64,000 bases of DNA. Origin: Candidatus Sulfopaludibacter sp. SbA3 (lineage in GTDB: Bacteria; Acidobacteriota; Terriglobia; 20CM-2-55-15). The notes beneath the pieces were generated by a model. That model did no database searches. It was not told the DNA's origin and saw nothing but the letters and a program-made list of their open reading frames with translations. The DNA lies in the NCBI GenBank assembly GCA_945865815.1, contig CAMBFR010000006.1, positions 1 through 64,000 of the forward strand, given 5' to 3'. Below, one piece after another: positions 28,561 through 64,000 of this stretch. The position numbers and the translations under genes are program-made. Positions within the stretch are counted from its first letter, which is position 1, and every line of letters starts with the position of its first letter.

Positions 28561-29352
28561 TCAGGGTTTCTGAGCGCGGCTCTGCTTGAGATAGTGCGGG
28601 CTGTATTGAAGTCCGTACGGGGTCGTAATCTTGTGCGCGGCTTTTTCCCGGAAGAATTCTTCCTTGGCCTTGTTGATCGCCTCCAACTCGGCTTCGGTGC
28701 AATCCTGCAAAGTAATCTCTTCACGCGGCACGAAGAAGACCTGTCCGATAGGCATGGTGTGTGATCCGGGAATCCCCTCCCCGGGCTGAAGAACATAACG
28801 GAATTCGGTTTCGTGCGGGTACCAGTCCGTTTCGACGCGGACGATCAACATCGGAGCCATGGGCCGCTCAATCATGTTGAAGATCGGCGAATACACCGTG
28901 TCCCAGCCGGCCGGCGTCTGAAAATTGGTTGCGCCGCGAAGTGCGACCGCGCCCGCCGGCGTTCCGAGATCCTCCGGAACGATAAACGCGCGCGTGATAC
29001 CCAGGGCGGCCTCGCTGGAAATCGGCGAATTCTTCGTTGTAAACGATACCTGGTCCCTGATCATGCCGACACTCCCCACAGGCATGACCATCATGACCTT
29101 GAAAATCGGTTCCCACTTCCCTTTGGGACTGGACAGAAAGTAGGTGAACTGGTACTGGCCGTCGCCCTCATACTCGATGTGAAATGATTCTTTCGGGTCG
29201 AGCGGCGGATATACGAGAAAACCAAGCGAGCTCCCGGCTTCCAATACCGGACAGTGGCGCGCGTGCTGGGGCAAAAGAGGCCGCTGACCTTCTCGACGCG
29301 GCCTCATGCCGACGCCCGGACGAATAGAATTGGGAAATAGTCGAACTTCCAT
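28561..29352 (-). CDS. Conserved hypothetical protein
   Basis: 263 aa ORF without obvious overlap to another credible gene; no domain recognised with confidence. Confidence 0.65.
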   Translation of the reverse strand: MEVRLFPNSIRPGVGMRPRREGQRPLLPQHARHCPVLEAGSSLGFLVYPPLDPKESFHIEYEGDGQYQFTYFLSSPKGKWEPIFKVMMVMPVGSVGMIRDQVSFTTKNSPISSEAALGITRAFIVPEDLGTPAGAVALRGATNFQTPAGWDTVYSPIFNMIERPMAPMLIVRVETDWYPHETEFRYVLQPGEGIPGSHTMPIGQVFFVPREEITLQDCTEAELEAINKAKEEFFREKAAHKITTPYGLQYSPHYLKQSRAQKP

Positions 29353-47922: not shown

Positions 47923-48438
47923 GTGCAAGACTTCGCAACACCTCTAAGTATGGTGAAGAAATGGGCTCGCCTCTGGCGTGTTCCCTCGTTGGCACAAGTT
48001 GAAATAACAACGAACGCCCGCCTGCGAACTTGCCTCGGCCGATGTTTTCCAAAGTTAAATCGGATCGAGCTCAACCCTTCTCTCTTCGAAAAGAAGCGTG
48101 CTCGTCTAAACGAAGTTTTGTGCCACGAAGCGGCCCACATTGCAGCATATGCTCTCGGACCCGGTCAATCGCGCGCCCACAGTAGGCAATGGGCTGTCTT
48201 GATGACCGCCGCCGGCTTCAAGGCGAAGACAACGGTCCCTGGGCATAGATCCACGCCATACGGCCAGCCACCCAAAATTCGAGACGAAGTCTTTGAGCAC
48301 TATTGTCCGGTCTGCAGGTTCATGCGCATGGCCCGAAGACCGGTGTCGCGATGGAAGTGCCGGACATGTGTCTCAGCGGGATTGAGCGGAGATCTCAAGA
48401 TCCGAACCCGCCACGTCCGTGGTAAAGGAGCGGCGTGA
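47923..48438 (+). CDS. SprT-like zinc metalloprotease-like protein
   Basis: NEVLCHEAAHIAAYALGP (HExxH); C-terminal zinc ribbon CPVCRFM...WKCRTC. Confidence 0.8.
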   Translation: MQDFATPLSMVKKWARLWRVPSLAQVEITTNARLRTCLGRCFPKLNRIELNPSLFEKKRARLNEVLCHEAAHIAAYALGPGQSRAHSRQWAVLMTAAGFKAKTTVPGHRSTPYGQPPKIRDEVFEHYCPVCRFMRMARRPVSRWKCRTCVSAGLSGDLKIRTRHVRGKGAA

Positions 48439-51400
48439 GCATGGATCAGTGTCCATTCTGTGAGGTCCCATCTGAAAGGATCTTCTATGAGAGCGGCCTT
48501 ACACTTGGCATTTGGGACGGCTTCCCAGTTTCGGCAGGCCATGCGTTAGTCATCACCCGGAGACACGTCCCAAGTTGGTTTGAAGCAACTCCTCAAGAGC
48601 GAATCGAAATTGTAAGCACGATCGACGAGGTACGGTCATTAGTATCCGCATCACACCAGCCGAGCGGTTTCAATATTGGAATAAACGTCGGCGAAGCGGC
48701 TGGCCAAACGATCTTTCACGTGCACGCACATGTCATCCCTCGCTACAAGGGAGACGTTGCCGATCCCCGTGGTGGTGTTCGGCATGTGATTCCCTCAAAA
48801 GCTAACTATATTTCTCAAACCGACGCTTTGGGAACGCGGGACCGCCGCGAACGATCAATCGTGACGGGAGGCGATGACCCGCTCCTGCCTCACCTTCTCT
48901 CGAACTTCACCGATGCCAGGTGCCTGGATATCGCAGTCGCCTTCACCCTCCAGAGTGGAATCAGATTGCTTCAGCCATACTTACGTGAACTGCTGGATCG
49001 CGGTGGAAAAGTGCGTTTTCTAACGGGCGATTATCTCGGCGTAACGGACCCAGACGCCCTTATGGTTGTTCAGGACCTCGATGGTGATATCACCGCTCGT
49101 GTTTTCGAAACCGCCAAGGGTCCATCATCTTTCCATCCAAAGACGTATATTTTTCATTACAAGAATGACTACGGCATCGCTTTTGTGGGCAGCTCCAATT
49201 TGAGTGAAACCGCTCTGCGGGGAGGAGTCGAATGGGACTACAAGGTCATCTCGTCCCGAGATCCTGAAGGATTCGCGGACATTGGCGACGCGTTTGAGCG
49301 TCTCTTCGGTCATCCCGCAACACAGGAGCTGAGTTACGACTGGATAGAACAATACCGTCCACGGCATCGCACGGCGCTATCAATTACGCTTCAAGACATC
49401 GACGTTCCGATTGAGCTACCCATCCCTGCCGTTACGCCTCACGACATCCAGAAGGAAGCGCTTACCGCTCTCGAGAATACGCGGCGTGTGGGCAATACGG
49501 CCGGCCTAGTTGTGCTCGCGACCGGCTTGGGCAAGACATGGCTGGCGGCTTTTGACAGCCACCGCCGGGAGTTTCCAAAGATCCTGTTCGTGGCGCATCG
49601 TGAAGAGATCCTGGCTCAAGCTCTAGAGACGTTCCGTCGGATTCGTCCAGACGCTTGGCTTGGAAACTACGATCGTAACAACAAGGACATCCAAACCGAC
49701 GTGCTGTTCGCTTCCATACAAACGCTTGGCAAGCGGATCCACTTTGAACGTTTTGAACCCACGGCATTCGATTACATCATCGTCGACGAATTTCACCACG
49801 CTGACGCGCCATCTTATAGACGCCTGATCGATCATTTTGAGCCGAAGTTCATGTTGGGTCTAACCGCTACGCCGGAAAGAACGGACGGCGGAGACCTGCT
49901 GTCTTTGTGCCACGAAAACCTTGTCTACCGATGCGACCTCGGTACGGGCATCCGTCGCAAGCAATTATGTCCATTCCACTACTATGGCGTGCCAGACGAT
50001 GTCGACTATCGGAATATCCCATGGCGGAGCAATCGTTTTGACGAGAAGGAACTCACGGCGGCGGTCGCGACAAGAGCACGCGCGGACAACGCCCTGGATC
50101 AGTTCAGAAAGAGGGCCGGAAAGCGAACGCTGGCTTTCTGTGTGTCTCAGCGTCACGCCGATTTCATGGCGGATCACTTTCGAAACGAAGGAATTCGAGC
50201 GGCTGCCGTTCACTCAGGAGAAGGTAGCGATCCTCGTGCTGCATCCCTCGAACGCCTCAAGGCAGGCGACTTAGACATTCTCTTCGCCGTCGACATGTTC
50301 AACGAAGGAGTCGATCTCCCATCGCTGGATACAGTAATGATGCTCCGGCCAACTGACTCAAAGATTGTTTGGCTGCAACAGTTCGGACGCGGCTTGAGGA
50401 CATCGGCCGGTAAACCGTACCTGACCGTTATTGACTACATCGGAAATCACCGAACGTTCCTTCTGAAGCCCCTGACATTGTTGGAGGAGCTAATACCCCT
50501 GAAGCCAACCGATCGTGACATCTGGAACGCACTCGAAAGAATTCAGGCCGATGCGATGGAACTGCCGCCTGGCTGCGAGGTCACATACGAACTCGAGTCG
50601 GTGGAAATCCTGAAGGGTCTGCTGAAGTTGGGATCCAAACCAGGGCAGGCCATGCGGGAATACTATGAAGATTTCAGGGAACGAACCGGCCAGCGTCCGA
50701 CAGCTGTGGAAGCGTTCCATGACGGATTCAGCCCGAAGTTTGTACGATCACTTTACGGATCGTGGCTGAAATTTGTGAATGAGATGGGAGACCTTGCGCT
50801 CGGTCAGCAATCCGCACTAGAAAGCTGCGGCGATGTGCTCGAAGCGATTGAGAAAACACCGATGACTCGCAGCTACAAAATGCTTCTCTTGAAAGCGTTG
50901 CTGAAAGTGGACAGGATTCCCGGTCGAATAAGCCTGTCTGATCTTGCGCGCGAAGTCGGCAAGCTCGCCGCGACCTCATCCAGGCTGCGATCCGATCTGA
51001 GCGTACAGCCCGAGGACCTCGCGGCCGTCCAGACTCTATTGAAGAAAGACCCAATCGCTGCTTGGACGGGAGCGAAAGGTACAAAGGGAAAGCCGTATTT
51101 CGAATTCTCGGATGACACTTTCCGCGCGACTTTCTCCGTGTCGGATGCGGAACGGGAGTCCTTCCGTGAATTGACGAGGGAACTCGTCGAATGGCGTCTC
51201 GCGGAATACCTCGGACTTGAAGAAGAAGGTCATGAGCCGAAGTCCGCTGAGGAGACCGCAGCACCTGCCAAAACGGCGAAACTTGAACTGTGGCAGCCCT
51301 ATCAAAGGAGACAGATTCCTCCGTTATTCGGGCTGAAATTCTCTACCGGAAATTGGAACGCGGGATTTGTCCCAACAGACAATCATATTTTTCTCCTTGT

Positions 51401-51752
51401 CACACTTGCCAAGGAGACGAAAACAGCCAACTTTCAATACCACGACCGGTTCCTGACCGCAGAGACATTTCAATGGCAGAGTCAGAACCAGACAACGCAA
51501 GCGAGCAAGAATGGATTGGAGATTCGCAACCACGCGGCCATGGGAATCACGGTACACCTATTCGTCCGGCGCGACTCGAAGACACCAAACGGTACCGGAG
51601 CCCCGTTTTATTACTGCGGTGACGTTGAATTTATCGACTGGCACGGCGAAAAACCCATCACCGTACAATGGCGATTGACGAATGCTTTACCGCAAAGACT
51701 CCAAGATTCGTTCCAAATTCCCGAACCGCCAGAACAATCGAGCAGTAGTTGA
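48435..51752 (+). CDS. HIT domain - PLD nuclease domain - SF2 (DEAD/DEAH) helicase - DUF3427-like fusion protein
   Basis: HIT triad FHVHAHVIPRY; PLD HPKTYIFHYKNDYGIAFVGSSNLSE; Walker A ATGLGKTW; DEFHH; QQFGRGLRTS; GTGA overlap with upstream gene (alternative ATG 48441). Confidence 0.88.
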   Translation: MSMDQCPFCEVPSERIFYESGLTLGIWDGFPVSAGHALVITRRHVPSWFEATPQERIEIVSTIDEVRSLVSASHQPSGFNIGINVGEAAGQTIFHVHAHVIPRYKGDVADPRGGVRHVIPSKANYISQTDALGTRDRRERSIVTGGDDPLLPHLLSNFTDARCLDIAVAFTLQSGIRLLQPYLRELLDRGGKVRFLTGDYLGVTDPDALMVVQDLDGDITARVFETAKGPSSFHPKTYIFHYKNDYGIAFVGSSNLSETALRGGVEWDYKVISSRDPEGFADIGDAFERLFGHPATQELSYDWIEQYRPRHRTALSITLQDIDVPIELPIPAVTPHDIQKEALTALENTRRVGNTAGLVVLATGLGKTWLAAFDSHRREFPKILFVAHREEILAQALETFRRIRPDAWLGNYDRNNKDIQTDVLFASIQTLGKRIHFERFEPTAFDYIIVDEFHHADAPSYRRLIDHFEPKFMLGLTATPERTDGGDLLSLCHENLVYRCDLGTGIRRKQLCPFHYYGVPDDVDYRNIPWRSNRFDEKELTAAVATRARADNALDQFRKRAGKRTLAFCVSQRHADFMADHFRNEGIRAAAVHSGEGSDPRAASLERLKAGDLDILFAVDMFNEGVDLPSLDTVMMLRPTDSKIVWLQQFGRGLRTSAGKPYLTVIDYIGNHRTFLLKPLTLLEELIPLKPTDRDIWNALERIQADAMELPPGCEVTYELESVEILKGLLKLGSKPGQAMREYYEDFRERTGQRPTAVEAFHDGFSPKFVRSLYGSWLKFVNEMGDLALGQQSALESCGDVLEAIEKTPMTRSYKMLLLKALLKVDRIPGRISLSDLAREVGKLAATSSRLRSDLSVQPEDLAAVQTLLKKDPIAAWTGAKGTKGKPYFEFSDDTFRATFSVSDAERESFRELTRELVEWRLAEYLGLEEEGHEPKSAEETAAPAKTAKLELWQPYQRRQIPPLFGLKFSTGNWNAGFVPTDNHIFLLVTLAKETKTANFQYHDRFLTAETFQWQSQNQTTQASKNGLEIRNHAAMGITVHLFVRRDSKTPNGTGAPFYYCGDVEFIDWHGEKPITVQWRLTNALPQRLQDSFQIPEPPEQSSSS

Positions 51753-51867
51753 GATACCGGGGTGCCGTTCAAAAGGTCGGGAGAAAACGTCTAAAAAGGT
51801 TTATTCTCAACGCGATGAACCTCAGCTTGGTGAACGCCAAAGACGCGTTTCGCGTCTATCTGCAGTA

Positions 51868-52806
51868 GTGGGCAGCACGAATGACCCCGAGCTCGATGCG
51901 GTCATGGCAGCCCTCCGGGCCGCTGATCCGGACGGTGCGCGCTTTGCCCGAACACTTCGTCGCACGTATGACCAGATCTATGACGGCCGGAACACAGGCC
52001 GATTTCGCACCGAACAGCTAAAGAAAACTGAGAAGACCCACTTCGGCTCGCTGGTCGAAATCAACCTTCAGAGAGAGTTCTCTTTTGAGGACGGCATTGA
52101 TCTCGATTACCGGATTGCCGGCGCCGACGTGGACTGCAAGTGGTCGCAGGACGATGGTGGATGGATGCTACCACCAGAAGCGATAGGCCAAATCTGTCTA
52201 CTCGTGACGGGAAGTGACGGGAAGTCGGCTTGGAGTGCCGGATTGATACGTGCAATCGAATCACTATTGAGCCCTTCGAGTAACCGCGATGACAAAAAGA
52301 AGCTCAGCGCGGCGGGCAAAACAGCAATTCAATGGATATGGAGAGAAATGGCACTGCCCGAAAACGTTTTACTGCACATCGATCCAGCAATTCAGAAAGC
52401 GATAATGGTGGATCTCGATGGGCCGCGGCGCGGACAGAAGCGGATGGACGAGTTGTTCCGGCGAGTCCCCAATCGAATCATCGGCCGCGGAGTGGTCGCG
52501 ACAGTGGCACAGCAGGACGATTACATGAAGAGGGTGCGCGACAATGGCGGATCCCGGCAGAAGCTGAAACCTGAGGGAATCGTTGTTTTTGCTGACTACC
52601 TCGGTCACCGCGAGCTAGCGCTTAGCCTCGGCCTTCCGCCAATCGGAGATGGTGATTCAATCAGTGCCCGGCTCATCCAGATCGAAGGACCCAGCGATCG
52701 CGCTGTGCAACTCGGCGAAGCCTGGTACCGGCTGTGCGCCGAGGGCGAAGAGCCGACCCGGCCCGCGCCCGACTTGCCAGCCGCTAAAGGTAGCAAGAGG
52801 ACCTGA
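51868..52806 (+). CDS. NaeI-family type II restriction endonuclease
   Basis: DPDGARFARTLRRTYDQIYDGRNTGRF; KTEKTHFGSLVEINLQREF; LDYRIAGADVDCKWSQDDGGWMLPPEA; RGVVATVAQQDDYMKRVR; start inferred (ORF open from 51682). Confidence 0.88.
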   Translation: MGSTNDPELDAVMAALRAADPDGARFARTLRRTYDQIYDGRNTGRFRTEQLKKTEKTHFGSLVEINLQREFSFEDGIDLDYRIAGADVDCKWSQDDGGWMLPPEAIGQICLLVTGSDGKSAWSAGLIRAIESLLSPSSNRDDKKKLSAAGKTAIQWIWREMALPENVLLHIDPAIQKAIMVDLDGPRRGQKRMDELFRRVPNRIIGRGVVATVAQQDDYMKRVRDNGGSRQKLKPEGIVVFADYLGHRELALSLGLPPIGDGDSISARLIQIEGPSDRAVQLGEAWYRLCAEGEEPTRPAPDLPAAKGSKRT

Positions 52807-52871
52807 CTCGTCCACCCAACCCCGCAATATGAGGTTCTAACTTCTCCGGCCCACGGATTGAAGGGGACACA

Positions 52872-53828
52872 ATGACCAAATTGACTTCAGTCGAGATATG
52901 TGCGGGCGCGGGTGGCCAGGCACTAGGCCTGGAGCAGGCAGGCTTCCAGCATCAAGCCTTGATTGAAATCGATAGACACTGTTGCGCAACACTGCGATTT
53001 AATCGTCCTAAATGGAACGTCATCCACGGCGATTTGAGCGACTTTGACGGGCGGCCATACAAGGGCGTCGACCTGCTGGCCGGGGGGGTTCCTTGCCCAC
53101 CTTTTTCAGTAGCCGGTAAGCAACTGGGGCCGGCGGACGAGCGTAATCTTTTCCCAGCAGCCATTCGCTTGGTTTCCGAGATTCGCCCCAAAGCCGTGCT
53201 GCTTGAGAACGTCAAGGGGTTGAAGGAGACCGCGTTTGATGACTACCGTGGATCGATTTCCAAAGCGGTAGAGCGGTTAGGGTACGCCACGGATTGGAAG
53301 CTGCTTAATGCCTCCAATTATGGAGTCTCACAGCTTCGTCCCCGCCTTTTGTTCGTGGCGGTGCGCAATGACCTTGTGGAAGAATTTAGTTGGCCCGATC
53401 CAGAAATGGGAAGACCCGCCACGGTTGGTGAGAAGCTGTATGACCTGATCGCGGCACGGGGGTGGAAAGGAGCCCGGGCCTGGAAGAAACTCGCGAATGA
53501 CATTGCGCCAACAGTAGTCGGCGGATCCCTCAAACACGGCGGCCCCGACTTGGGCCCAACCCGCGCAAGACAGGCATGGGCGCTGCTCGGTGTCGACGGT
53601 ATCGGCATCGCTGACGAAGCGCCTGGGCCCGATTTCGTTGGAATGCCGCGACTGACAGTTCAAATGGTCGCCCGGCTGCAAGGATTCCCCGAAACATGGC
53701 AGATCGCTGGAGGCAAGACCGCAGCGTATCGACAGGTTGGTAATGCCTTTCCTCCACCTGTTGCTCGAGCCGTCGGTCAGCGGCTTTTCGAGTGCCTGAT
53801 TCAACGCGAAGTCCAGTACGCGACGTGA
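52872..53828 (+). CDS. DNA (cytosine-5-)-methyltransferase
   Basis: EICAGAGGQALGLEQAGF; GGVPCPPFSVAGKQ; ENVKGLKE; SQLRPRLLFVAVR; VGNAFPPPVARAVG. Confidence 0.95.
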   Translation: MTKLTSVEICAGAGGQALGLEQAGFQHQALIEIDRHCCATLRFNRPKWNVIHGDLSDFDGRPYKGVDLLAGGVPCPPFSVAGKQLGPADERNLFPAAIRLVSEIRPKAVLLENVKGLKETAFDDYRGSISKAVERLGYATDWKLLNASNYGVSQLRPRLLFVAVRNDLVEEFSWPDPEMGRPATVGEKLYDLIAARGWKGARAWKKLANDIAPTVVGGSLKHGGPDLGPTRARQAWALLGVDGIGIADEAPGPDFVGMPRLTVQMVARLQGFPETWQIAGGKTAAYRQVGNAFPPPVARAVGQRLFECLIQREVQYAT

Positions 53829-53904
53829 TTGTCCGGGCGTTGATTCAAGACTGACACCCCGAGACGCTTCCGATCCATCACTAGATTTGGTAATTTGATG
53901 GGCC

Positions 53905-54321
53905 GTGGTGGATACCATTTCTCCAGAACGCCGACGCGAAAATATGCGGCGCATTCGCAGCAAGGGCATGAGTCCGGAGCTCCACGTCCGGCAGCTTCTG
54001 CACCATTTGGGGTATCGCTATCGCCTCCATCGTAAGAGCTTGCCGGGGCACCCTGACATCATCTTCCCAAAGCTGCAAAAGGCAATCTTCGTTCACGGTT
54101 GCTTCTGGCATCAGCACTCCGATCCTGCCTGCAAGATCACACGTGTTCCGAAATCCCGCCTGGAGTACTGGGCCCCCAAACTCGCGCGGAACAAGCAAAG
54201 AGATGAACAAAGCGTCGCTCTTCTCCTACAACTTGGCTGGAATGTGCTGGTCGTCTGGGAATGTCAGGTCGTTTATCCAGACAGCCTGAAACAGCGGCTA
54301 GTCAGCTTCCTGAATAGTTGA
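53905..54321 (+). CDS. vsr: Very short patch repair endonuclease (Vsr)
   Basis: RRENMRRIRSKGMSPELHVRQLLHHLGYRYRLHRKSLPGHPDIIFPKLQKAIFVHGCFWHQH; WNVLVVWECQV. Confidence 0.95.
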   Translation: MVDTISPERRRENMRRIRSKGMSPELHVRQLLHHLGYRYRLHRKSLPGHPDIIFPKLQKAIFVHGCFWHQHSDPACKITRVPKSRLEYWAPKLARNKQRDEQSVALLLQLGWNVLVVWECQVVYPDSLKQRLVSFLNS

Positions 54322-54351
54322 CGATTGTTTTTTTGGCATTCTCATCAAGGG

Positions 54352-54567
54352 TCAGCCGAGGATCTCATCGACGCTGAGCGGAATGTCCGGAAATGAACGT
54401 CGCATGACCGTCTCGTTACGGTGAAACGTCAGGCAGGTTTGGTATCGGTCCTGAACCGGATCGCGAAAAACGAGCAGCACACCCGGCGGTTCCCCGGGTT
54501 CCGACCCGGACCACTGACCTCGGCCCCGATGTTCTCCTGCTTCTATCGGGCTTTCGATGGCAGCCAA
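54352..54567 (-). CDS. Possible small hypothetical ORF overlapping the PIN toxin 3' end
   Basis: 71 aa; no domain recognised. Confidence 0.3.
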   Translation of the reverse strand: MAAIESPIEAGEHRGRGQWSGSEPGEPPGVLLVFRDPVQDRYQTCLTFHRNETVMRRSFPDIPLSVDEILG

Positions 54568-54980
54568 ACGACCTGGAGCGCTCGCGCTTTTTCGAGCGAT
54601 TTGAATTCGGGATCGCCCGTTACAAGTCCCGCTTCGTGTTTTTCGGCCAGCGCGGCGGCGAAGGCATCGGCCAATGAAATCGCATGGCCCGCCTTGAACC
54701 GGGCCGCCGCCAGAGCTTCGGACCTTGAAATTGAGCCGATTTGAACGGGAAGGCTTTCTATTAGCTCAACCGCCCTGCTCGCAGCCAGTTCCTTGTCGCT
54801 ATCGAGACATCGACGCGCGGTGATGTAGTAGACCTCGGCGATATTCATCCACGATAGAAAGATCTCCGCAGAATTCTCCCGGGCTTTCTCCAGGATTGCC
54901 TGAACCGTTGCCGCGCCAGGCTCGTCCGCCAGCCACACAAGAAGGGCAAAACTGTCCAAGACATAACGCGTGGTTTTCAC
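54543..54980 (-). CDS. PIN-domain toxin (VapC-like)
   Basis: GTG start 4 nt after antitoxin stop; TTRYVLDSFALLVWLADEPGA...EVYYITAR...ISLADAFAAALAEKHEAGLVTGDPEFKSL. Confidence 0.88.
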   Translation of the reverse strand: MKTTRYVLDSFALLVWLADEPGAATVQAILEKARENSAEIFLSWMNIAEVYYITARRCLDSDKELAASRAVELIESLPVQIGSISRSEALAAARFKAGHAISLADAFAAALAEKHEAGLVTGDPEFKSLEKARALQVVWLPSKAR

Positions 54981-54984
54981 ACCA

Positions 54985-55260
54985 CTAACCACTTTTCGAC
55001 GCCGGCTTGCGCCTCTTCCGTGTAAGCCTCGCGTCATGTTGGAATTCCTCGGTTCGCCCTTCCTTGAGAAGGTCAGCCACAGGGCGGTCGAAACGTACCA
55101 TTCCACGCCCCTGCCGGACCGCATCCGGCGCCGGGAGTATCGCGATGTGGCCCCCTATCTCGGTCACGATTACCTCGCTGTTGGGGGCAATGCCGTGCTT
55201 GTCTCTAAGCTCCTTCGGAATGACCAACTGACCTTTCTGAGTAACACTCATTCGATGCAT
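54985..55260 (-). CDS. AbrB/MazE-type antitoxin
   Basis: MSVTQKGQLVIPKELRDKHGIAPNSEVIVTEIGGHIAILPA (swapped-hairpin AbrB domain). Confidence 0.88.
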   Translation of the reverse strand: MHRMSVTQKGQLVIPKELRDKHGIAPNSEVIVTEIGGHIAILPAPDAVRQGRGMVRFDRPVADLLKEGRTEEFQHDARLTRKRRKPASKSG

Positions 55261-55748: not shown

Positions 55749-55777
55749 ATGTCCAAACTCCACGGCAAGGTGGCTGC

Positions 55778-57745
55778 TCAGGCAGGATGGGGGCCGTTGG
55801 TAAACGTCAGGTATGTATGATCCGTCAGGCCCTTTTCGTATTCGGCAAGCAGGCGCATTCCTTCGCTGGGCTTCAGGCGGTCCGTCTTGATGGCGTCGGC
55901 GATCTGCTCTTTTATAGCGCGCACCAGGTCGTTCGGATAGTACTGCGTCATCTCGAGAACCTGGGTGATCGTGTTGCCGCTGATCGTTTCTTCGATGTAG
56001 AAACCCGAGTCTTCATCCGCATCGAGGAAGACATGCGCTTCATTCACGCGCCCGAAGAGATTGTGAAGGTCGCCCATGATGTCCTGGTAAGCCCCGGTCA
56101 GGAACATCCCAATGTAATACGGATCGCCGTTCCTGAGCGGATGGAGCGGCAGGGTTTTCCTCACGTCCATGATGTCCGCGAAGTGATTGATCTTCCCATC
56201 CGAGTCGCACGTGATGTCGCAAAGCGTTCCCTGCATCGACGGACGTTCGTTGAGCCGGTGCACCGGCATGATGGGAAAGATCTGGCTGAGCGCCCAATGG
56301 TCCGGCAGGCTCTGAAACACCGAAAAGTTACATAAATATTGATCCGCCAGATGGGGCACCAGCTCGGAAATTTCTTCCGGCATCGGATCTTCTTCCGCGT
56401 CGGACACCGACCGGTTCGCGTAGTAGTCCGAAATCTCTTCGGCAATCGCCCAATAGAAGGTTTCGATTTTTGCTTTGGTCCGCAGGTCGAGAATCCCGAG
56501 GTCGAATGCGTTCTGCGACTCTTCCTTGATCTGGAGCGCGTCGTGAAGGGCTACCCGCGGGTTGCTTCGGATGTAATCCTTCGTCTCGGCGAGCTGCTTG
56601 ATCCACTTGTGATCGTTGTCTCTGACGGAAAGGTCGTACTCGGCTTTCGTCTTTTCGATCGTGCCGAACACCTGGACGATCAGGAGGGAATGATGCGCCA
56701 CAATCGCCCTTCCGGATTCCGACACGACGTTCGGATGCGGCACGCCTTCTTCATCGCAGATGTCCTTGATATTGAAGATGCAGTCGCCCACATATTCGTC
56801 CAGCGAGTAGTTGGCCGAGGAATGAAAAAGAGCGCGGCTTCCGTCGTAGTCCACGCCGAGGCCGCCGCCCACATCGATGTAGTCCAGCTTGTCGAAACCG
56901 ATCTTCCTCAGCTTCGCGTAGTACCGGGCTCCTTCGCGAGTCGCTTTCTTGATCGATTGAATATCGGGAACCTGGGAACCGATGTGGAAGTGAACCATCC
57001 GCAGCGCGTCCAGCGCGCCCTGCTCGCGAAGGAATTCCACGGCTTCCATCAGGTCCAGCGTCGAAAGACCGAACTTGGCGGACTCGCCTCCGGACGTCGC
57101 CCAGATGCCCGTGCTCTTCGCCGCCAGGCGCACGCGCACTCCGATCCACGGATCGACGCCCGCCTCGCGGCTGATCTCGATGATCGACTTGATCTCTTCC
57201 AGTTTCTCGGCGATCAGGATGATTTTCTTGCCCAGCTTTCTACCGATCGTAGCCGTGCGGATGAAAGCGGTGTCCTTGTACCCGTTGCAGATGATGAGCG
57301 ACTCCGGATCGCGATGAGTGGCAAGGGCCGAGTAGAGTTCCGGCTTCGAGCCGGCTTCCAGGCCATAATGAAAAGGCAGTCCGGCCAGCGCAATCTCTTC
57401 GACCACTTCACGAAGCTGGTTCACCTTGATCGGAAAGACTCCGAAATAGGAGCCGCCATACTTGTTCTCGGCGATCGCTTCGATGAAGGATTTGTTGAGC
57501 CACTCGACCCGGTCACGAAGCAGGTCCTGGAACCGGACGACCATCGGAAACTGCAGGCCGCGCTCCCGCGCTTCCTTCAAAACCTCAAGCAGGTCGATGC
57601 TGGCGTCCTTGTCCCGGCGCGGCGAAACCGAGATATTGCCGGCGTCGTTGATCGAAAAATATCCGAGACTCCATCGGTCTATGTTGTAGGTGGAGATCGA
57701 ATCGTCTACGGTCCATGCGGGCGATGCGAGCGGTTCGGTTGTCAT
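55778..57745 (-). CDS. speA: Biosynthetic arginine decarboxylase
   Basis: 655 aa; PIKVNQLREVVEEIALAG (PLP lysine region), HFHIGSQVPDI, YIDVGGGLGVDYDGS, NLFGRVNEAHVFLD. Confidence 0.94.
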   Translation of the reverse strand: MTTEPLASPAWTVDDSISTYNIDRWSLGYFSINDAGNISVSPRRDKDASIDLLEVLKEARERGLQFPMVVRFQDLLRDRVEWLNKSFIEAIAENKYGGSYFGVFPIKVNQLREVVEEIALAGLPFHYGLEAGSKPELYSALATHRDPESLIICNGYKDTAFIRTATIGRKLGKKIILIAEKLEEIKSIIEISREAGVDPWIGVRVRLAAKSTGIWATSGGESAKFGLSTLDLMEAVEFLREQGALDALRMVHFHIGSQVPDIQSIKKATREGARYYAKLRKIGFDKLDYIDVGGGLGVDYDGSRALFHSSANYSLDEYVGDCIFNIKDICDEEGVPHPNVVSESGRAIVAHHSLLIVQVFGTIEKTKAEYDLSVRDNDHKWIKQLAETKDYIRSNPRVALHDALQIKEESQNAFDLGILDLRTKAKIETFYWAIAEEISDYYANRSVSDAEEDPMPEEISELVPHLADQYLCNFSVFQSLPDHWALSQIFPIMPVHRLNERPSMQGTLCDITCDSDGKINHFADIMDVRKTLPLHPLRNGDPYYIGMFLTGAYQDIMGDLHNLFGRVNEAHVFLDADEDSGFYIEETISGNTITQVLEMTQYYPNDLVRAIKEQIADAIKTDRLKPSEGMRLLAEYEKGLTDHTYLTFTNGPHPA

Positions 57746-57901
57746 CCTCTGGTGATCGCTTCCAAGTCTTCGTTATCCTCCGGTGCAACTTCAGGCTGCT
57801 CGTAATCTTTACCAGCTTTAGGGCAGTCACTTCGACAAAATAATTCGGATTGCCGCGCATATTTTTCGGGTCCGTTCGTTACAATGTGCCGGCGGCTTCA
57901 T

Positions 57902-58846
57902 ATGAAAACCATTGAACGCCTCGAACGATGGCGGGATGAGGGCTTGATCACGGGCGCACAGTACGACGCGCTCAGCTTGCTCGTCCTCAAGCGGCGGTTC
58001 TCCGTGTTCCTGGAACTGAACGCGCTTCTGTATCTGGGAGTGATCTCGCTGGTTGGCGGTCTTGCGTGGACAGCGGGAACATATTCCGAACGGCTCGGCG
58101 ATTCGTTCATCCTGATCGTCCTGTCCGGCCTGTTCGTGCTTTGCCTCTCTTACTGCTTTTCACGCTCGCATTCGTATTCCGCCACCGAAGTGGAATCTCC
58201 AAATCTCGCCTTTGATTATGTGCTGTATGCCGGATGCCTGATTTTTTCCGTGGAACTCGGCTATATCGAAAACCGTTTCCAACTGCTGCAGTCGGCCTGG
58301 GATAACTACCTCCTGTTCGGCGCCGCCGTCTTCTTTGTCCTCGCCTACCGGTTCGACAATCGATTGGTCCTCTCGCTGGGCCTGTCGTCTCTGGCGGCAT
58401 GGTTCGGCCTGAGGTTCTCGCAGTTCGGCTTGCTGACCCCGGACTCCATACACGTATATGCGCTCGCCTATGCGGCCATCGTCGCCGGCGCGGGGGCCTG
58501 GCTCTGGCGGATAGAGATCAAGAAACACTTCCTCGAAACCTATCTTCACGTGGCGGCGAATGTCGCTTTCATCGCCCTACTCACCGGCGTGGACTGGAAC
58601 GGAAGCGGGTGGTTGTACCTCGCCGGCCTTTTGGCGCTTTCTGGAGCCGCGGGTTTGATGGGCGTGAAGTTCAGGCGATTCGCATTCGTTGCGTACGCCG
58701 TCATCTATGGCTACCTGGGTGTCAGCTACCAGGTGATCTGGGAACTCCGCGATCTCGTACTTGCCCTGATGTACCTCGCGATCACCGGAATCATGGTCGT
58801 CATCTGGATGGTCCGGCTAGCCAGGCGCCTCGCGAGGGAAACATGA
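57902..58846 (+). CDS. DUF2157-like multi-pass membrane protein
   Basis: ERLERWRDEGLITGAQYDAL then multiple TM segments; overlaps next gene by 4 nt. Confidence 0.72.
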   Translation: MKTIERLERWRDEGLITGAQYDALSLLVLKRRFSVFLELNALLYLGVISLVGGLAWTAGTYSERLGDSFILIVLSGLFVLCLSYCFSRSHSYSATEVESPNLAFDYVLYAGCLIFSVELGYIENRFQLLQSAWDNYLLFGAAVFFVLAYRFDNRLVLSLGLSSLAAWFGLRFSQFGLLTPDSIHVYALAYAAIVAGAGAWLWRIEIKKHFLETYLHVAANVAFIALLTGVDWNGSGWLYLAGLLALSGAAGLMGVKFRRFAFVAYAVIYGYLGVSYQVIWELRDLVLALMYLAITGIMVVIWMVRLARRLARET

Positions 58847-59934
58847 ACTGCTACACAGAGGAGCAGGAAGACAACATCAGAAACGACAGTCTGGTGCGCG
58901 AGTGGGCGCAGTCCGGACTGCTCGGCGCTGCGCAAGCCGATCGGCTTGCCGCAGATTTAAAAACAGATTTGCAGCAAACCAACCTATTCCTGCGGATCGT
59001 CCTCTTCGCATTCGGTCTGTTGATTGTTGGTGCATCCGTTCTCCTCACGATCGAACTCCTGGACATCGATGGACGAGGCCCGCACGCCATTTTGTTTTTT
59101 ATTTCTGCGGGCGTCTCGTTCGGACTTGCGGAAAGCCTCGCACGCCGCCTCTACCGTTTTGGCGTTGAAGAATCACTGGCGGTCAGCGCCGTCGTTCTCA
59201 CAGGACTCGGCGCTGCGGTCCTGGCATCGAATGAATTCTTCGCCGGCCTTTTGGCTGCAGCCGCAGCGGCGCTGGTTGTGTACCTGCGGTTCGGATATAT
59301 GTACGCTGCGGTTGGCTCGATGTTGTGCCTGGTGGCATCGACGTTTCAGATCGGGCAGTCGGAAATAATGGAGCGTGTGACCGTCGTTCTGGTGCTGTTG
59401 CCGATCTTCATGATGGTGCGTAATGAAACGATTGCCGCACTCGCATGGGCCGGTGTCTACGCCGCCATCAATCTTCTCGCGTTCGAGCCAAACGCCGCGA
59501 GTGCGTTCCCTCCTTCATTTTATTGGGCGACGTATGCTCTAACGTGGTTACTCCCTGCGATTGGCCTCTATCTCGCGTTAAAGGACAAGAACCGCGTGCT
59601 CCTTGACGTCAACCTGGTGATGGCGCTGGCGACGCTCGTCACGAACAAACCGTATCTCGGTCTCGAGCGGCGAGCGTGGGATCCGATCCTATTGGGCGTG
59701 TTCCTGATCGGGACGGCGCTCGTTGTCCGTCGATGGCTCGCGAATGGGCTCGACAGCCATCGTAACGGGTATACAGCTTCCCGCCTCCTCAGTTCCGACA
59801 AGCGCGCGCTCGCATTCGTCGGCACCGTCTCCACGGCGATTCAACCGGATATTCCGGCTCCGTCACCTTCTGACACGGAATTCAAACCCGGTGGCGGGCG
59901 CTCGGGCGGCGGCGGCGCCAGCGGCAGCTTTTGA
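58843..59934 (+). CDS. DUF2157/DUF4401-like multi-pass membrane protein
   Basis: REWAQSGLLGAAQADRLAADL then many TM segments; Gly/Ser-rich tail GGGRSGGGGASGSF; ATGA overlap. Confidence 0.72.
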   Translation: MNCYTEEQEDNIRNDSLVREWAQSGLLGAAQADRLAADLKTDLQQTNLFLRIVLFAFGLLIVGASVLLTIELLDIDGRGPHAILFFISAGVSFGLAESLARRLYRFGVEESLAVSAVVLTGLGAAVLASNEFFAGLLAAAAAALVVYLRFGYMYAAVGSMLCLVASTFQIGQSEIMERVTVVLVLLPIFMMVRNETIAALAWAGVYAAINLLAFEPNAASAFPPSFYWATYALTWLLPAIGLYLALKDKNRVLLDVNLVMALATLVTNKPYLGLERRAWDPILLGVFLIGTALVVRRWLANGLDSHRNGYTASRLLSSDKRALAFVGTVSTAIQPDIPAPSPSDTEFKPGGGRSGGGGASGSF

Positions 59935-59989
59935 AAGTGCTTAGTCGATGCTTGGACACTTTCACGAACAACCAGAACCCGAGTATGGT

Positions 59990-60031
59990 CCCTCTCCCTC
60001 CGGGAGAGGGTGGCCGAAGGCCGGGTGAGGG
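59990..60031 (+). repeat. Short palindromic repeat (REP-like), family 2 copy 2
   Basis: ccctctccctccgggagagggtggccgaaggccgggtgaggg. Confidence 0.75.
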
Positions 60032-60072
60032 TCCTCCCGCCGCCTTGCGGCACAATCTCCGAAAATACGGGT

Positions 60073-61209
60073 TTAGTCCAGGAACTTGGCTTCGGCGAGG
60101 CGGGCGGGCACGTACTCCTCGGTGACGTAGCTGATGTCCTTGCTGATGAGGGCTTCGACTTCAAGCTTGAAGCCGTTGTCGAGCATCAGGTCGATTTCCT
60201 TCTGCCACGGCTTCTTGTTCGCGAACCATGGGTACTGCGCGATCTGGCGGGCTCGTTTGATGTCCTGATCGTTCAGCTTGATTTGCACGCTCGGTGTGAG
60301 CTGGCAGCGCTCGTAGTCGTTGCTCCGCAGGCCGAGGAACCGGGCGGCGGGAATAGCCATCCGGCGGGATTCGTAGGCCAGGTTGATCGACCCCTGCTTG
60401 ATGACGCTGTAGATGTAGTATCCCCAGGGATCGTTATCGAGAAGGCAATACACGGGCAGCTTCAGCTCGTAGTGCAGCCGGTGCAGCATGCGGCGGACGC
60501 CGCGCGGGGGCTGTCCGCCTCCGTGCGTCAGGATGCAATTGTGCTGGCGCCAGAATTTGTCCTCGTTGAAGCGCCGCCAGACCGTGTCCTTTTCGACGTG
60601 CAGGACGAACGCGGCGGTGTTCTTCTTGTACTGCACAATCTCCGGCTCGACGATGGACGGAATGCTGTAGCCGCCCGAACCCATGCGTGAACAATCGATC
60701 TCGTCACCGCTGTCCACGAGCGTGATCGGGCCGACCATCGCGCCGGCATTTTTGGCGTAAAGGTGAAGTTCTTCGCGCATCGAATCGAGCGAGACCTCGA
60801 CGTCTTCGATAATGGGGTCGCATTCGCCTTGCGTGTCGAAGGTTTCTTCGCTCGTGCCTTCGATCGTGTGCTTCAACAGATAGAACATGCCGCGGATGCT
60901 GGTTGTCTTGCCCTGCTCGATGAGCTTCTTGCATCCGGAGCCCACGAGCAGGGTCTGCATGTAGCTGCGGGCCTGCGCAAGATTGAAAAGCTCGCGGCGA
61001 TTGGTTCCGGAGCCCATTTCGATGATTTTCTTAGAATTGTTGAAGCGCACGTTCGAGAGCGAGCGCGAAGGGATCTCGACGTAAGGGGCGCGGCCCCGGT
61101 CGGCGGACGATACGACTTCGTCGGCAAGTGAGCGGATCGAGCCGAGGGTCTTCTTGTCCTTGGCGGTAAGGATTACCGTGTCGGAGGGCTTTTTGGTTTT
61201 CTTAGCCAT
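60073..61209 (-). CDS. top6A: DNA topoisomerase VI subunit A (Spo11-like)
   Basis: SIRGMFYLLKH (catalytic Tyr region); TOPRIM VYCLLDNDPWGYYIYSVIKQGS; RFLGLRSNDYERC. Confidence 0.92.
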   Translation of the reverse strand: MAKKTKKPSDTVILTAKDKKTLGSIRSLADEVVSSADRGRAPYVEIPSRSLSNVRFNNSKKIIEMGSGTNRRELFNLAQARSYMQTLLVGSGCKKLIEQGKTTSIRGMFYLLKHTIEGTSEETFDTQGECDPIIEDVEVSLDSMREELHLYAKNAGAMVGPITLVDSGDEIDCSRMGSGGYSIPSIVEPEIVQYKKNTAAFVLHVEKDTVWRRFNEDKFWRQHNCILTHGGGQPPRGVRRMLHRLHYELKLPVYCLLDNDPWGYYIYSVIKQGSINLAYESRRMAIPAARFLGLRSNDYERCQLTPSVQIKLNDQDIKRARQIAQYPWFANKKPWQKEIDLMLDNGFKLEVEALISKDISYVTEEYVPARLAEAKFLD

Positions 61210-61219
61210 GATTGTTGAA

Positions 61220-63217
61220 TTACAAGTCGGCGATCGGCGGCTCCTCCGCATTCACGATCAAGACATTCTCGCCGAAGTCTTCTTCGGCCGACTCCACCTT
61301 CCTGCCGCTGTCGTCCAGCAGGATGTCGGCCTCGGAGGTCTTGCGCTTCGCGACCTGGAGCAGGCGGCCGTAGAGATCTTTCCGGGAACGGTCGCTCAGC
61401 TCCTTGATCGATGAAACAGCCATTGCGACCTCGCCAAGATATCGCAGGAATACTTCCCGCCGCTGTCCCTCCTGGTGCACGCGCTTGCGCCGGTTCAGAT
61501 ACATCGCCAGTTTCCGGCCGACAGCCTGAAGCCCGAGCCTCAGTTCCTTCGTGATTTCGGGATACGAGGCGATAGCTTCCTTGGATTCGCTGGTGAACGG
61601 CACCCAGACGCTGGCCATATGCACCATGATCGTCACCGGGCCCGCCGGCACCTGGCCGCGCGACTGCGACAACCCGTACGACCGCCAGTTATTCGCAATC
61701 ACGGACTGCGTAATCGCGCAGGCCGCGGACTGAAACTGGAGCGGGACGCGGTTGGCATACCGCAGCACCTGCATCGACTGTCCTTCGCTCAGGTTGACGT
61801 TCTTCATCGCGGCGTGAAGTTTCGCGATGTCTTCCTTCGCGAGCTTCGCGGCCGTTTGCCGCGGCCCCATGTCGGCCTCCGACAAAATCTTCTCCGCTCC
61901 CGCGGGGCCAATCCCATCGAAGGTCGTCAGCAGGAATTGCCGGATCGAGCGCGCGTCGCTTTCCGCCAGCAACTCCGTCAGCGCGTCGAGCGTCACCTTC
62001 TGCGTGGAACTGCTGCCGCCATAGGCCAATCCAACTTCGATCAGAAACGGGTTTCCTCTATATACAGCCGGAGGCCGCGTTGCCGCGCAGAAGAACTCGC
62101 CGGGCACCTGCTGGTGCAGTCCCTTGAGAATCAGCGGCTCGCCGATGGGAGAAATACAATCCGTGGCCGGAGCGCTGATCTTCGTGTTCTGAATCGCCTG
62201 GTACAGCGCGTCGGCTTCCTGGCGGCCGATGCGCTTTGGACTGGACCGGGTGCTGATTTTCGCGCCATCACAGATATGCTTTGCCACGCTGGAAGTCACA
62301 CGCGAAAACGACTCGGTGAGGAACTGCGCCATCGTGCCGGCGTTCGTATCCTTGAGCATCGTGACCAGACGGCCCAGCTCGATGCCGTACGGATGCGGCT
62401 TGATCTCACGGGGTTCCGGCGGAAGGTCGGAGGTCGATCTCTCGTATGTTGCCGCTGTCCCATCCGGGTCGATGTAGTGAATCGTGACGTGAGGGTTCGC
62501 AATCGCAGTTTGCTCCAGATACTCATCGGCGCTGCCGCGGCCCCGCACATACCGCCCTTCCAACTCGATGGTCACGCGGGTGCCGCTGCGCGAGCCAGGC
62601 ACCCATTCGATGCCGTGAGCGGCAATGTATTGCTGCCCCTTTTCGCCGGAAGGAATCTCTTCGCCATCTCCCCTGCCGTTGATGATCTCCGGCTGGTTCC
62701 GCTTGGTGTCGATTTGAATTTCAAAGTAGTGGGCCGGTTTTCTCGGAGAGGTCATGGAAATGATCTTCACCGGCTTGCCGGTGGTGAGCATTCCATACAT
62801 GCCCGCGGCACTGATGCCGATTCCCTGCTGGCCGCGGCTCATGCGAAGACGGTGGAACTTGGAGCCGTAGAGGAGCTTACCGAAGATGAGTGGAATCTGC
62901 TTCTTGACGATGCCGGGACCGTTGTCCTGCACGCCGACCTTGAAGCGATTGTTGCCGGTAGTCTCAATGTGCACCCGGATCTCGGGCACAATGCCGGCCT
63001 CCTCGCACGCGTCGAGCGAGTTGTCGACGGCTTCCTTTACGGCAGTGAGGAGGGCTTTGCGGGGATTGTCGAATCCGAGCAGATGCCGGTTCTTGGCGAA
63101 GAACTCGCTGACTGAAATGTCGCGCTGCTTTGCCGCCATCGATTCGGCGGTGGCGCGCTTGCGGGGAGGGGGGGGCGGTTGCTGGGCGTTGTCTTCGTTG
63201 TCTTCGTTGTTTGCCAT
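61220..63217 (-). CDS. top6B: DNA topoisomerase VI subunit B (GHKL ATPase)
   Basis: VKEAVDNSLDACEEAGIVPEI; VQDNGPGIVKKQIPLIFGKLLYGSKFHRLRMSRGQQGIGISAAGMYG. Confidence 0.94.
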   Translation of the reverse strand: MANNEDNEDNAQQPPPPPRKRATAESMAAKQRDISVSEFFAKNRHLLGFDNPRKALLTAVKEAVDNSLDACEEAGIVPEIRVHIETTGNNRFKVGVQDNGPGIVKKQIPLIFGKLLYGSKFHRLRMSRGQQGIGISAAGMYGMLTTGKPVKIISMTSPRKPAHYFEIQIDTKRNQPEIINGRGDGEEIPSGEKGQQYIAAHGIEWVPGSRSGTRVTIELEGRYVRGRGSADEYLEQTAIANPHVTIHYIDPDGTAATYERSTSDLPPEPREIKPHPYGIELGRLVTMLKDTNAGTMAQFLTESFSRVTSSVAKHICDGAKISTRSSPKRIGRQEADALYQAIQNTKISAPATDCISPIGEPLILKGLHQQVPGEFFCAATRPPAVYRGNPFLIEVGLAYGGSSSTQKVTLDALTELLAESDARSIRQFLLTTFDGIGPAGAEKILSEADMGPRQTAAKLAKEDIAKLHAAMKNVNLSEGQSMQVLRYANRVPLQFQSAACAITQSVIANNWRSYGLSQSRGQVPAGPVTIMVHMASVWVPFTSESKEAIASYPEITKELRLGLQAVGRKLAMYLNRRKRVHQEGQRREVFLRYLGEVAMAVSSIKELSDRSRKDLYGRLLQVAKRKTSEADILLDDSGRKVESAEEDFGENVLIVNAEEPPIADL

Positions 63218-63253
63218 GCTGCGAGTCTCACTTTGTTACTCACAGCAGACAAC

Positions 63254-63562
63254 TCAGGTCCTTACCGAACGCAGGCGGGGCGCGCGCAGGTTCCGGTACT
63301 GGACGATATCGTTGGCTGTCAGCGCAAAGTGGCGCGCGTCAGTCAACTCGTCGCTGGCCATGTCCTGCAGCTTGGAGAAGCAGATGCCGGCGGCCTCCTG
63401 GATCAGGATGCGGTGTTCTCCGGAGAAAAGCAGTCCTGCGATGTCGAATGTGACGACCAGTCGGTCCAAACCATTCTTATCGACCGTGAAGCTCAATGAG
63501 CGTTCGCCATTCGGCATGCACTCAAATCCAATGTAACGTATGGCCCGTTTAGTATCTTTCAT
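63254..63562 (-). CDS. Small conserved-looking hypothetical upstream of topoisomerase VI genes
   Basis: 102 aa; RAIRYIGFECMPNGERSLSFTVDKNGLDRLVVTFDIAGLLFSGEHRILIQEAAGICFSKLQ; co-oriented with top6B/top6A. Confidence 0.6.
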   Translation of the reverse strand: MKDTKRAIRYIGFECMPNGERSLSFTVDKNGLDRLVVTFDIAGLLFSGEHRILIQEAAGICFSKLQDMASDELTDARHFALTANDIVQYRNLRAPRLRSVRT

Positions 63563-63645
63563 GTGATCCCGAATTCTTCATAGATGCTCATTGCAGTGTG
63601 AGGCTTTTCGGAGGGAATAGATAGAGATAAGGGGGGAGGCTTCCA

Positions 63646-63730
63646 ATGAGAAATGACAATTGAACAGTGAACAATGACAAAACATCCGGAAAATTTGTCA
63701 TTGTTCACTGTTCAATTGTCATTTTCTCAT
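63646..63730 (-). repeat. Long near-perfect inverted repeat immediately after a CDS stop
   Basis: ATGAGAAATGACAATTGAACAGTGAACAATGACAAA / TTTGTCATTGTTCACTGTTCAATTGTCATTTTCTCAT with 12-nt loop, one bulged base. Confidence 0.9.
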
Positions 63731-64000
63731 TCAAGGCGCCACGGTAAGCGTCGCCCCAACGGGTATAAAGGATGCGCCGTGATCGTTTGGATCGCGATGG
63801 GCGCGGATGCCCGTGACTCTCCACGTCCCCGCAGGCGTGGCTGCATCCAGGCGGTGAATCCCGGATACGCCGGATTGCCAGTTCTCGGCCACCTCGTCGG
63901 TAGTTCCTCCAGGTCTTCGAAACCGCACATCAAAATGAGTTTCGGCGGACAGGTTGGCCCCCGTGAACGCGGCGGTGAACGTACCGCCGCTCTGGACGGT
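63731..64000 (-). CDS. C-terminus of a secreted protein (truncated by window edge)
   Basis: Open frame to window end: TVQSGGTFTAAFTGANLSAETHFDVRFRRPGGTTDEVAENWQSGVSGIHRLDAATPAGTWRVTGIRAHRDPNDHGASFIPVGATLTVAP*. Confidence 0.65.
   Translation of the reverse strand, partial: TVQSGGTFTAAFTGANLSAETHFDVRFRRPGGTTDEVAENWQSGVSGIHRLDAATPAGTWRVTGIRAHRDPNDHGASFIPVGATLTVAP

Follow-up and report, generated by a model that had tools for sequence, protein, structure and literature searches.

The window analysed here comprises the first 64,000 nucleotides of contig CAMBFR010000006.1 from Candidatus Sulfopaludibacter sp. SbA3 (Acidobacteriota). At positions 47923-54321 on its plus strand stand five co-oriented genes, which are two separate modules lying side by side: a pair encoding a SprT-like protease and a large HIT-PLD-helicase protein, followed by a NaeI-type endonuclease, a C5-cytosine DNA methyltransferase and a Vsr endonuclease. 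The pair (47923-51752) is probably, at a rough probability of 0.6, an accessory defence module independent of NaeI, in which a SauUSI-like cutter of modified DNA is accompanied by the SprT-like protein as its proteolytic control. An initial annotation had already located all five open reading frames (ORFs) on this strand with the domains confirmed here, and had proposed that together they form one expanded restriction-modification (R-M) system. Its view that the large protein and its HExxH-containing neighbour are non-standard R-M parts that belong together is upheld by the present analysis, while the proposed partnership with NaeI is not.

A SprT-like protease encoded with a SauUSI-like enzyme

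The first gene (47923-48438, plus strand) encodes a SprT-like, SPRTN-type zinc metalloprotease of 171 residues (PF10263, E 1.8e-17, above the cut-off), with the active site HEAAH at residues 68-72 and a C-terminal zinc ribbon of the form CPVC...CRTC. Nine SprT partners share without exception the HExxH motif, all four cysteines and a number of further residues. Because a PDB sequence search with this protein returned only ribosomal zinc-ribbon matches, with no solved structure related to the protease domain, a fold search was needed; with an AlphaFold2 (AF2) model (predicted local distance difference test, pLDDT, 84), the best PDB match was human SPRTN (6mdx/6mdw, E 4.6e-4, template modelling (TM) score 0.52). 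The protein combines a SprT-like domain bearing the HExxH zinc site with an SPRTN-like fold, and is presumably a DNA-dependent metalloprotease of the SPRTN type. PADLOC gave no match for it.

The stop codon of this gene and the start codon of the next share a four-nucleotide overlap, GTGA (48435-48438), as the initial annotation had pointed out. Such tight coupling is a feature of the first two genes, the spacing among the other three being 65-115 nucleotides.

The second gene (48435-51752, plus strand) encodes a protein of 1105 residues with the order HIT, PLD, superfamily 2 (SF2) motor, coupler and SRA-like DUF3427 domain, an assignment resting on domain profiles, the PDB entry 7clg and PADLOC. 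It is of the type of SauUSI with a HIT domain added. SauUSI is a type IV restriction enzyme of Staphylococcus aureus that is ATP-dependent, translocates and cuts DNA containing S5mCNGS (5mC, 5-methylcytosine), and is built from a PLD nuclease, an SF2 motor, a coupler and an SRA reader (PMC7913695). By sequence, SauUSI is the best solved relative of the window protein (7clg, E 2.9e-94). It also ranks first by fold when the AF2 model (pLDDT 84.7) is compared, at E 4.4e-47 across some 975 columns; the global TM score is low (0.3-0.39), as expected if the placement of the domains differs. PADLOC assigns the protein to mREase_IV (E 3.7e-114).

All catalytic and reading domains can be traced individually on the plus strand. 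The HIT domain (residues 14-105, 48474-48749; PF01230, E 9.8e-20) carries HVHAHV at residues 95-100, and the three histidines are kept in all 25 HIT-fused relatives. It resembles the HinT and Ap4A-phosphorylase types, and among 40 PDB matches no aprataxin was found, the HIT proteins there being HinT, Fhit, HIT-family and Ap4A-phosphorylase entries; with its histidines kept, the domain probably works as a nucleotide hydrolase or transferase. The PLD nuclease domain (residues 145-311, 48867-49367) scores under the Pfam cut-off (PLDc_2, E 2.9e-5), and nonetheless contains the HxK..GSSN motif, with H234-x-K236, GSSN at 252-255 and E266. Its active site aligns with H119/K121 of the SauUSI nuclease; across 20-22 relatives K236, S253, S254, N255 and E266 are invariant and H234 nearly so. 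The SF2 helicase-like motor (residues 334-676, 49434-50462; PF04851, ResIII E 1.2e-36, and PF00271) retains intact and conserved motifs, namely the Walker A sequence GLGKT, the DEFH box and motif VI, QQFGRGLR. Finally, the C-terminal part of DUF3427 (residues 950-1093, 51282-51713; E 6.9e-30) corresponds in the SauUSI alignment to an SRA-like reader, whose F978, L988, V989, D1004 and W1014 align with Y831, F841, I842, D858 and W868 of SauUSI. In this 5mC pocket, which in SauUSI is itself a model, the aspartate and tryptophan are identical and the other three positions hold the hydrophobic substitutions F, L and V; almost every close relative that bears the domain has the same Asp and Trp. A segment of about 100 residues between coupler and reader, ending in WFGPxAGxPGT and present in most close relatives, is missing from the window protein (51195-51290).

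Distribution of the pairing across genomes

Genomes of five phyla were surveyed, contigs were scanned and plasmids searched, which yielded 88 alignable SauUSI-like proteins. All HIT-fused proteins fall within one clade of 41 rows (support 100 in a quick tree), a distribution explained most simply by later losses of the HIT domain. The close HIT-fused form is rare and patchy, being present in 6 of 396 Acidobacteriota genomes.

Within the close subclade, a SprT gene stands immediately upstream in 9 of the 14 loci with enough upstream DNA. These paired loci are the window, L010, L065, L066, L072 and L073 in Acidobacteriota, L001 in Myxococcota, and L008 and L091 in Planctomycetota. None of the 71 other assessable SauUSI-like loci (58 ordinary, 8 distant HIT-fused and 5 HIT-less of the close clade) has SprT upstream (Fisher p 5e-9, uncorrected for relatedness). 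The pairing is thus more than chance, though the p value ignores shared descent. The junction of the two genes overlaps in seven of the nine loci, as ATGA in L001, L008 and L010, as GTGA in the window and L065, and as TAATG in L072 and L073, so the overlap seen in the window recurs among its relatives.

Genes neighbouring HIT-PLD-helicases include HNH_2, NERD and SMC-like ATPase genes. HNH_2 nuclease genes adjoin the helicases in 4 of about 16 close-clade loci, among them L001 (4958-5941), L010 (10419-11348) and L066 (3869-4855); the N-terminal half of these nucleases has no domain assignment and looks EVE/PUA-like by eye. In Planctomycetota, the helicase copy at L008 (10004-12989) is broken across several frames, by frameshifts or assembly errors, beside an intact SprT gene. 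A peptide-pattern search of viral contigs found no relative, and the plasmid search found only HIT-less relatives. Two HIT-less members of the close clade (L088 and L089) are located on Rhodobacterales plasmids beside SIR2-family and Fic-family genes.

A strict dependence of the protease on the helicase was considered and rejected, the same SprT subfamily standing alone in genomes G091, G209 and G283. The helicase-free SprT loci L157, L158 and L159 have housekeeping-like surroundings, and in L158 the gene adjoins xerC-, topA- and dprA-like genes as well as a phospholipase-D-like gene.

A sister lineage with a fused S24-type peptidase

The more distant HIT-fused group, mostly from Planctomycetota, has no SprT. 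Seven of its proteins (L070, L092, L094, L095, L097, L098 and L099) carry near the C-terminus, in place of the DUF3427 reader, a Peptidase_S24 domain above the Pfam cut-off, and the LexA-type dyad, read from sequence, is kept in all seven as a serine (in GDSM or similar) and a lysine (in VKR or LKR). In L093, a GGSM stretch is found with no clear lysine, and DUF3427 is kept. In L092 and L097, the HIT-fused helicase directly adjoins an ordinary, HIT-less SauUSI-like helicase. Since this lineage has a fused S24/LexA-type peptidase, a protease accompanies the HIT-fused enzyme in two ways. At L069, in the close clade, the helicase lacks the reader domain, and the end of its gene is overlapped by an HNH_2 gene (6672-7619). 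Taken together with the S24 domain occupying the position of the reader, this arrangement indicates that readers and proteases have been exchanged around a constant HIT-PLD-SF2 core.

A generalisation to the whole family can be offered only tentatively, at well below even odds: HIT-fused SauUSI-like enzymes may be under dedicated proteolytic control, exerted in trans by the SPRTN-like protein or in cis by a self-cleaving LexA-type S24 domain, by which the translocating nuclease would be shut down or displaced on self DNA.

Proposed function and alternative explanations

The pairing of protease and DNA cutter suggests either a built-in proteolytic control or a helper step. By homology with SauUSI, the SRA-like C-terminal domain would recognise a modified cytosine on DNA entering the cell. 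The SF2 motor would translocate along this DNA, and BfiI-type PLD domains, whose active sites are kept, would cut it as a dimer in an ATP-driven reaction. The HIT domain would act on a nucleotide substrate as a hydrolase or transferase. The SprT-like protease would be made by translational coupling with the large protein; as a protease of the SPRTN type, it therefore probably acts on a protein that sits on the same DNA. Restriction alleviation is judged the most likely role: the protease would strip the translocating enzyme off self DNA. Such a control role fits because an enzyme for modified cytosine lives here beside a C5 methyltransferase, and a dedicated protease acting on a DNA-bound motor would solve the resulting conflict of self-attack.

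Several observations weigh against this reading. In the reader, Tyr831 of SauUSI, the modelled contact to the methyl group, is replaced by Phe. An enzyme with the S5mCNGS specificity of SauUSI would attack GCCGGC if either of the two inner cytosines were methylated, so the window enzyme either reads something else or is restrained, the target of the methyltransferase being assumed here from its NaeI neighbour. Five close-clade loci (L002, L003, L068, L069 and L111) do without SprT, which is therefore not essential to the enzyme. Conversely, the same SprT subfamily was detected in 5 of 247 Acidobacteriota genomes, in three of the five without the helicase.

The main rival accepts the same two-gene module and assigns the protease to attack, in that it would digest proteins on invading DNA (terminal proteins, relaxases or coats) for the passage of the motor, or else phage DNA-binding proteins. 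The SPRTN-type fold, which belongs to a class of DNA-binding proteases, its tight coupling to a DNA translocase and the conservation of the pairing in three phyla all speak for such a role; however, there is no known substrate from a phage or plasmid, and the S24-type peptidase of the sister lineage, of a mostly self-cleaving class, fits control better. An attacking protease is accordingly regarded as rather unlikely, though it is the strongest of the alternatives.

Considerably less probable is a repair operon for DNA adducts, in which SprT would degrade the crosslinked protein, the PLD domain would strip the remaining peptide in the manner of TDP1, the HIT domain would, like aprataxin, remove 5'-AMP, and the site would be opened by the helicase. 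The resemblance of the protease to SPRTN agrees with this proposal, and the four activities all have counterparts in eukaryotic end cleaning, represented by SPRTN, TDP1 and aprataxin. Nevertheless, the large protein has a single HxK..GSSN..E site of the BfiI/SauUSI type and aligns with SauUSI over nearly its full length, its HIT domain is of the HinT/Ap4A-phosphorylase rather than the aprataxin type, an SRA-like reader is attached, and the distribution is rare and patchy.

The adjoining NaeI cassette and its genomic setting

In the second module, a type IIE R-M set of the conventional kind is joined by its mismatch-repair companion. The NaeI-type (type IIE) restriction endonuclease (51868-52806, plus strand, start inferred) matches PF09126 (E 3.5e-102) and the NaeI structure 1ev7 (E 2.2e-81), with residues E70, D86, D95 and K97 kept in the alignment. 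Its longest ORF begins at 51682 and overlaps the helicase gene; as homology starts only at residue 67, this overlap is an ORF artefact, and translation probably starts near the GTG at 51868, about 115 nucleotides past the helicase stop. The C5-cytosine DNA methyltransferase (52872-53828, plus strand; PF00145, E 1.6e-67) contains the PCPPFS and ENV motifs, and the very-short-patch mismatch endonuclease Vsr (53905-54321, plus strand; E 1.5e-27) scores 145.8 bits against TIGR00632, over the cut-off. The module thus pairs a NaeI domain having its catalytic residues with an adjoining C5 methyltransferase, as a type IIE system does. The NaeI site GCCGGC occurs in the window about as often as expected (90 observed against 88 expected), which speaks neither for nor against this specificity.

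The initial annotation had called these three genes ordinary, and the same set indeed occurs without the helicase in another acidobacterial genome (L083 in G247), where the adjoining methyltransferase homologue scores 447 bits, and on the Rhodococcus opacus plasmid pROB02, there together with an HNH gene. NaeI and the methyltransferase are also found in Loktanella. Among 199 Acidobacteriota genomes, NaeI is above the cut-off in three.

The neighbourhood of the five genes is variable. A genome of the same genus (G001) shows 86% identity to 55771-63989; the end of speA, where the similarity breaks off, marks the right edge of the variable region (55771-55778, unstranded; blastn against L150 of G001), and in G003 the homologue of 28561-29352 directly adjoins speA. 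The interval from about 29.4 to 55.8 kb is therefore variable; genes of ordinary metabolism and transport lie in it too, which makes it a variable region and not a pure defence island. Because NaeI, methyltransferase and Vsr are complete without the helicase elsewhere, the juxtaposition is read most simply as a pair of defence cassettes occupying a single variable site. Immediately past them, on the minus strand (54543-55260), a PIN toxin and an AbrB/MazE-type antitoxin form a VapBC-like pair.

It is very improbable that all five genes form a single expanded R-M system, as initially proposed, with the HIT-PLD-helicase processing or amplifying NaeI cleavage. The five genes are co-oriented and share one terminator-like site at their end (a hairpin and T run at 54301-54322, the feature extending to 54340 on the plus strand, at the end of vsr; a pattern match only), and the HIT-fused locus L069 adjoins Vsr and a C5 methyltransferase. 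However, among the 25 HIT-fused proteins only that of the window stands beside NaeI, the SprT/HIT-PLD-helicase pair occurs without NaeI in eight other loci, and each half is found alone elsewhere. Of the co-occurrence with R-M genes that the initial annotation had called for, the NaeI link is accordingly absent outside the window itself (1 of 25), while a weaker link to C5 methyltransferase and Vsr is present in L069; amplification of cleavage finds no support, the nearest relative, SauUSI, being a restriction enzyme in its own right.

Comparison with known systems

Type IV enzymes must spare the host's own methylated DNA. If the control role is correct, the DNA-dependent protease that accompanies such an enzyme, or the LexA-type peptidase fused to it, would provide a dedicated off-switch open to direct testing, and SPRTN-like proteases, known from the repair of DNA-protein crosslinks, would be placed in bacterial immunity. 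A full-text search of the open-licence literature returned no paper describing the SprT/HIT-PLD-helicase pair, and nothing relevant on SprT with defence or R-M systems or on HIT with PLD or helicase domains; the tight pairing of a protease with a DNA cutter thus appears to be undescribed.

Among characterized systems, the NaeI/M.NaeI set with Vsr is matched by the window in its catalytic residues and in the adjoining C5 methyltransferase and Vsr, and differs only in its position next to the other module. The SprT-like protein shares with SprT/SPRTN the HExxH metalloprotease fold and the C-terminal Cys4 zinc motif, but is short and encoded directly before a restriction enzyme. With regard to control, ClpXP acts on HsdR of the type I enzyme EcoKI in restriction alleviation (PMC4231737), likewise a protease working on a DNA-translocating restriction motor. 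This likeness is one of analogy only, with no homology, and whereas ClpXP is a general housekeeping ATPase-protease, that of the window would be dedicated and encoded with its enzyme. The closest counterpart of the large protein is SauUSI, in which likewise a PLD nuclease is followed by an SF2 motor, a helical coupler and an SRA-like DUF3427 reader, and whose catalytic residues and reader Asp and Trp it retains; it differs in the N-terminal HIT domain, the co-translated SprT, the replacement of Phe841 by Leu in addition to that of Tyr831 by Phe, and an identity of 24% in the fold alignment. The architecture of the large protein is that of a SauUSI-like type IV variant, and the new part is its partnership with a protease.

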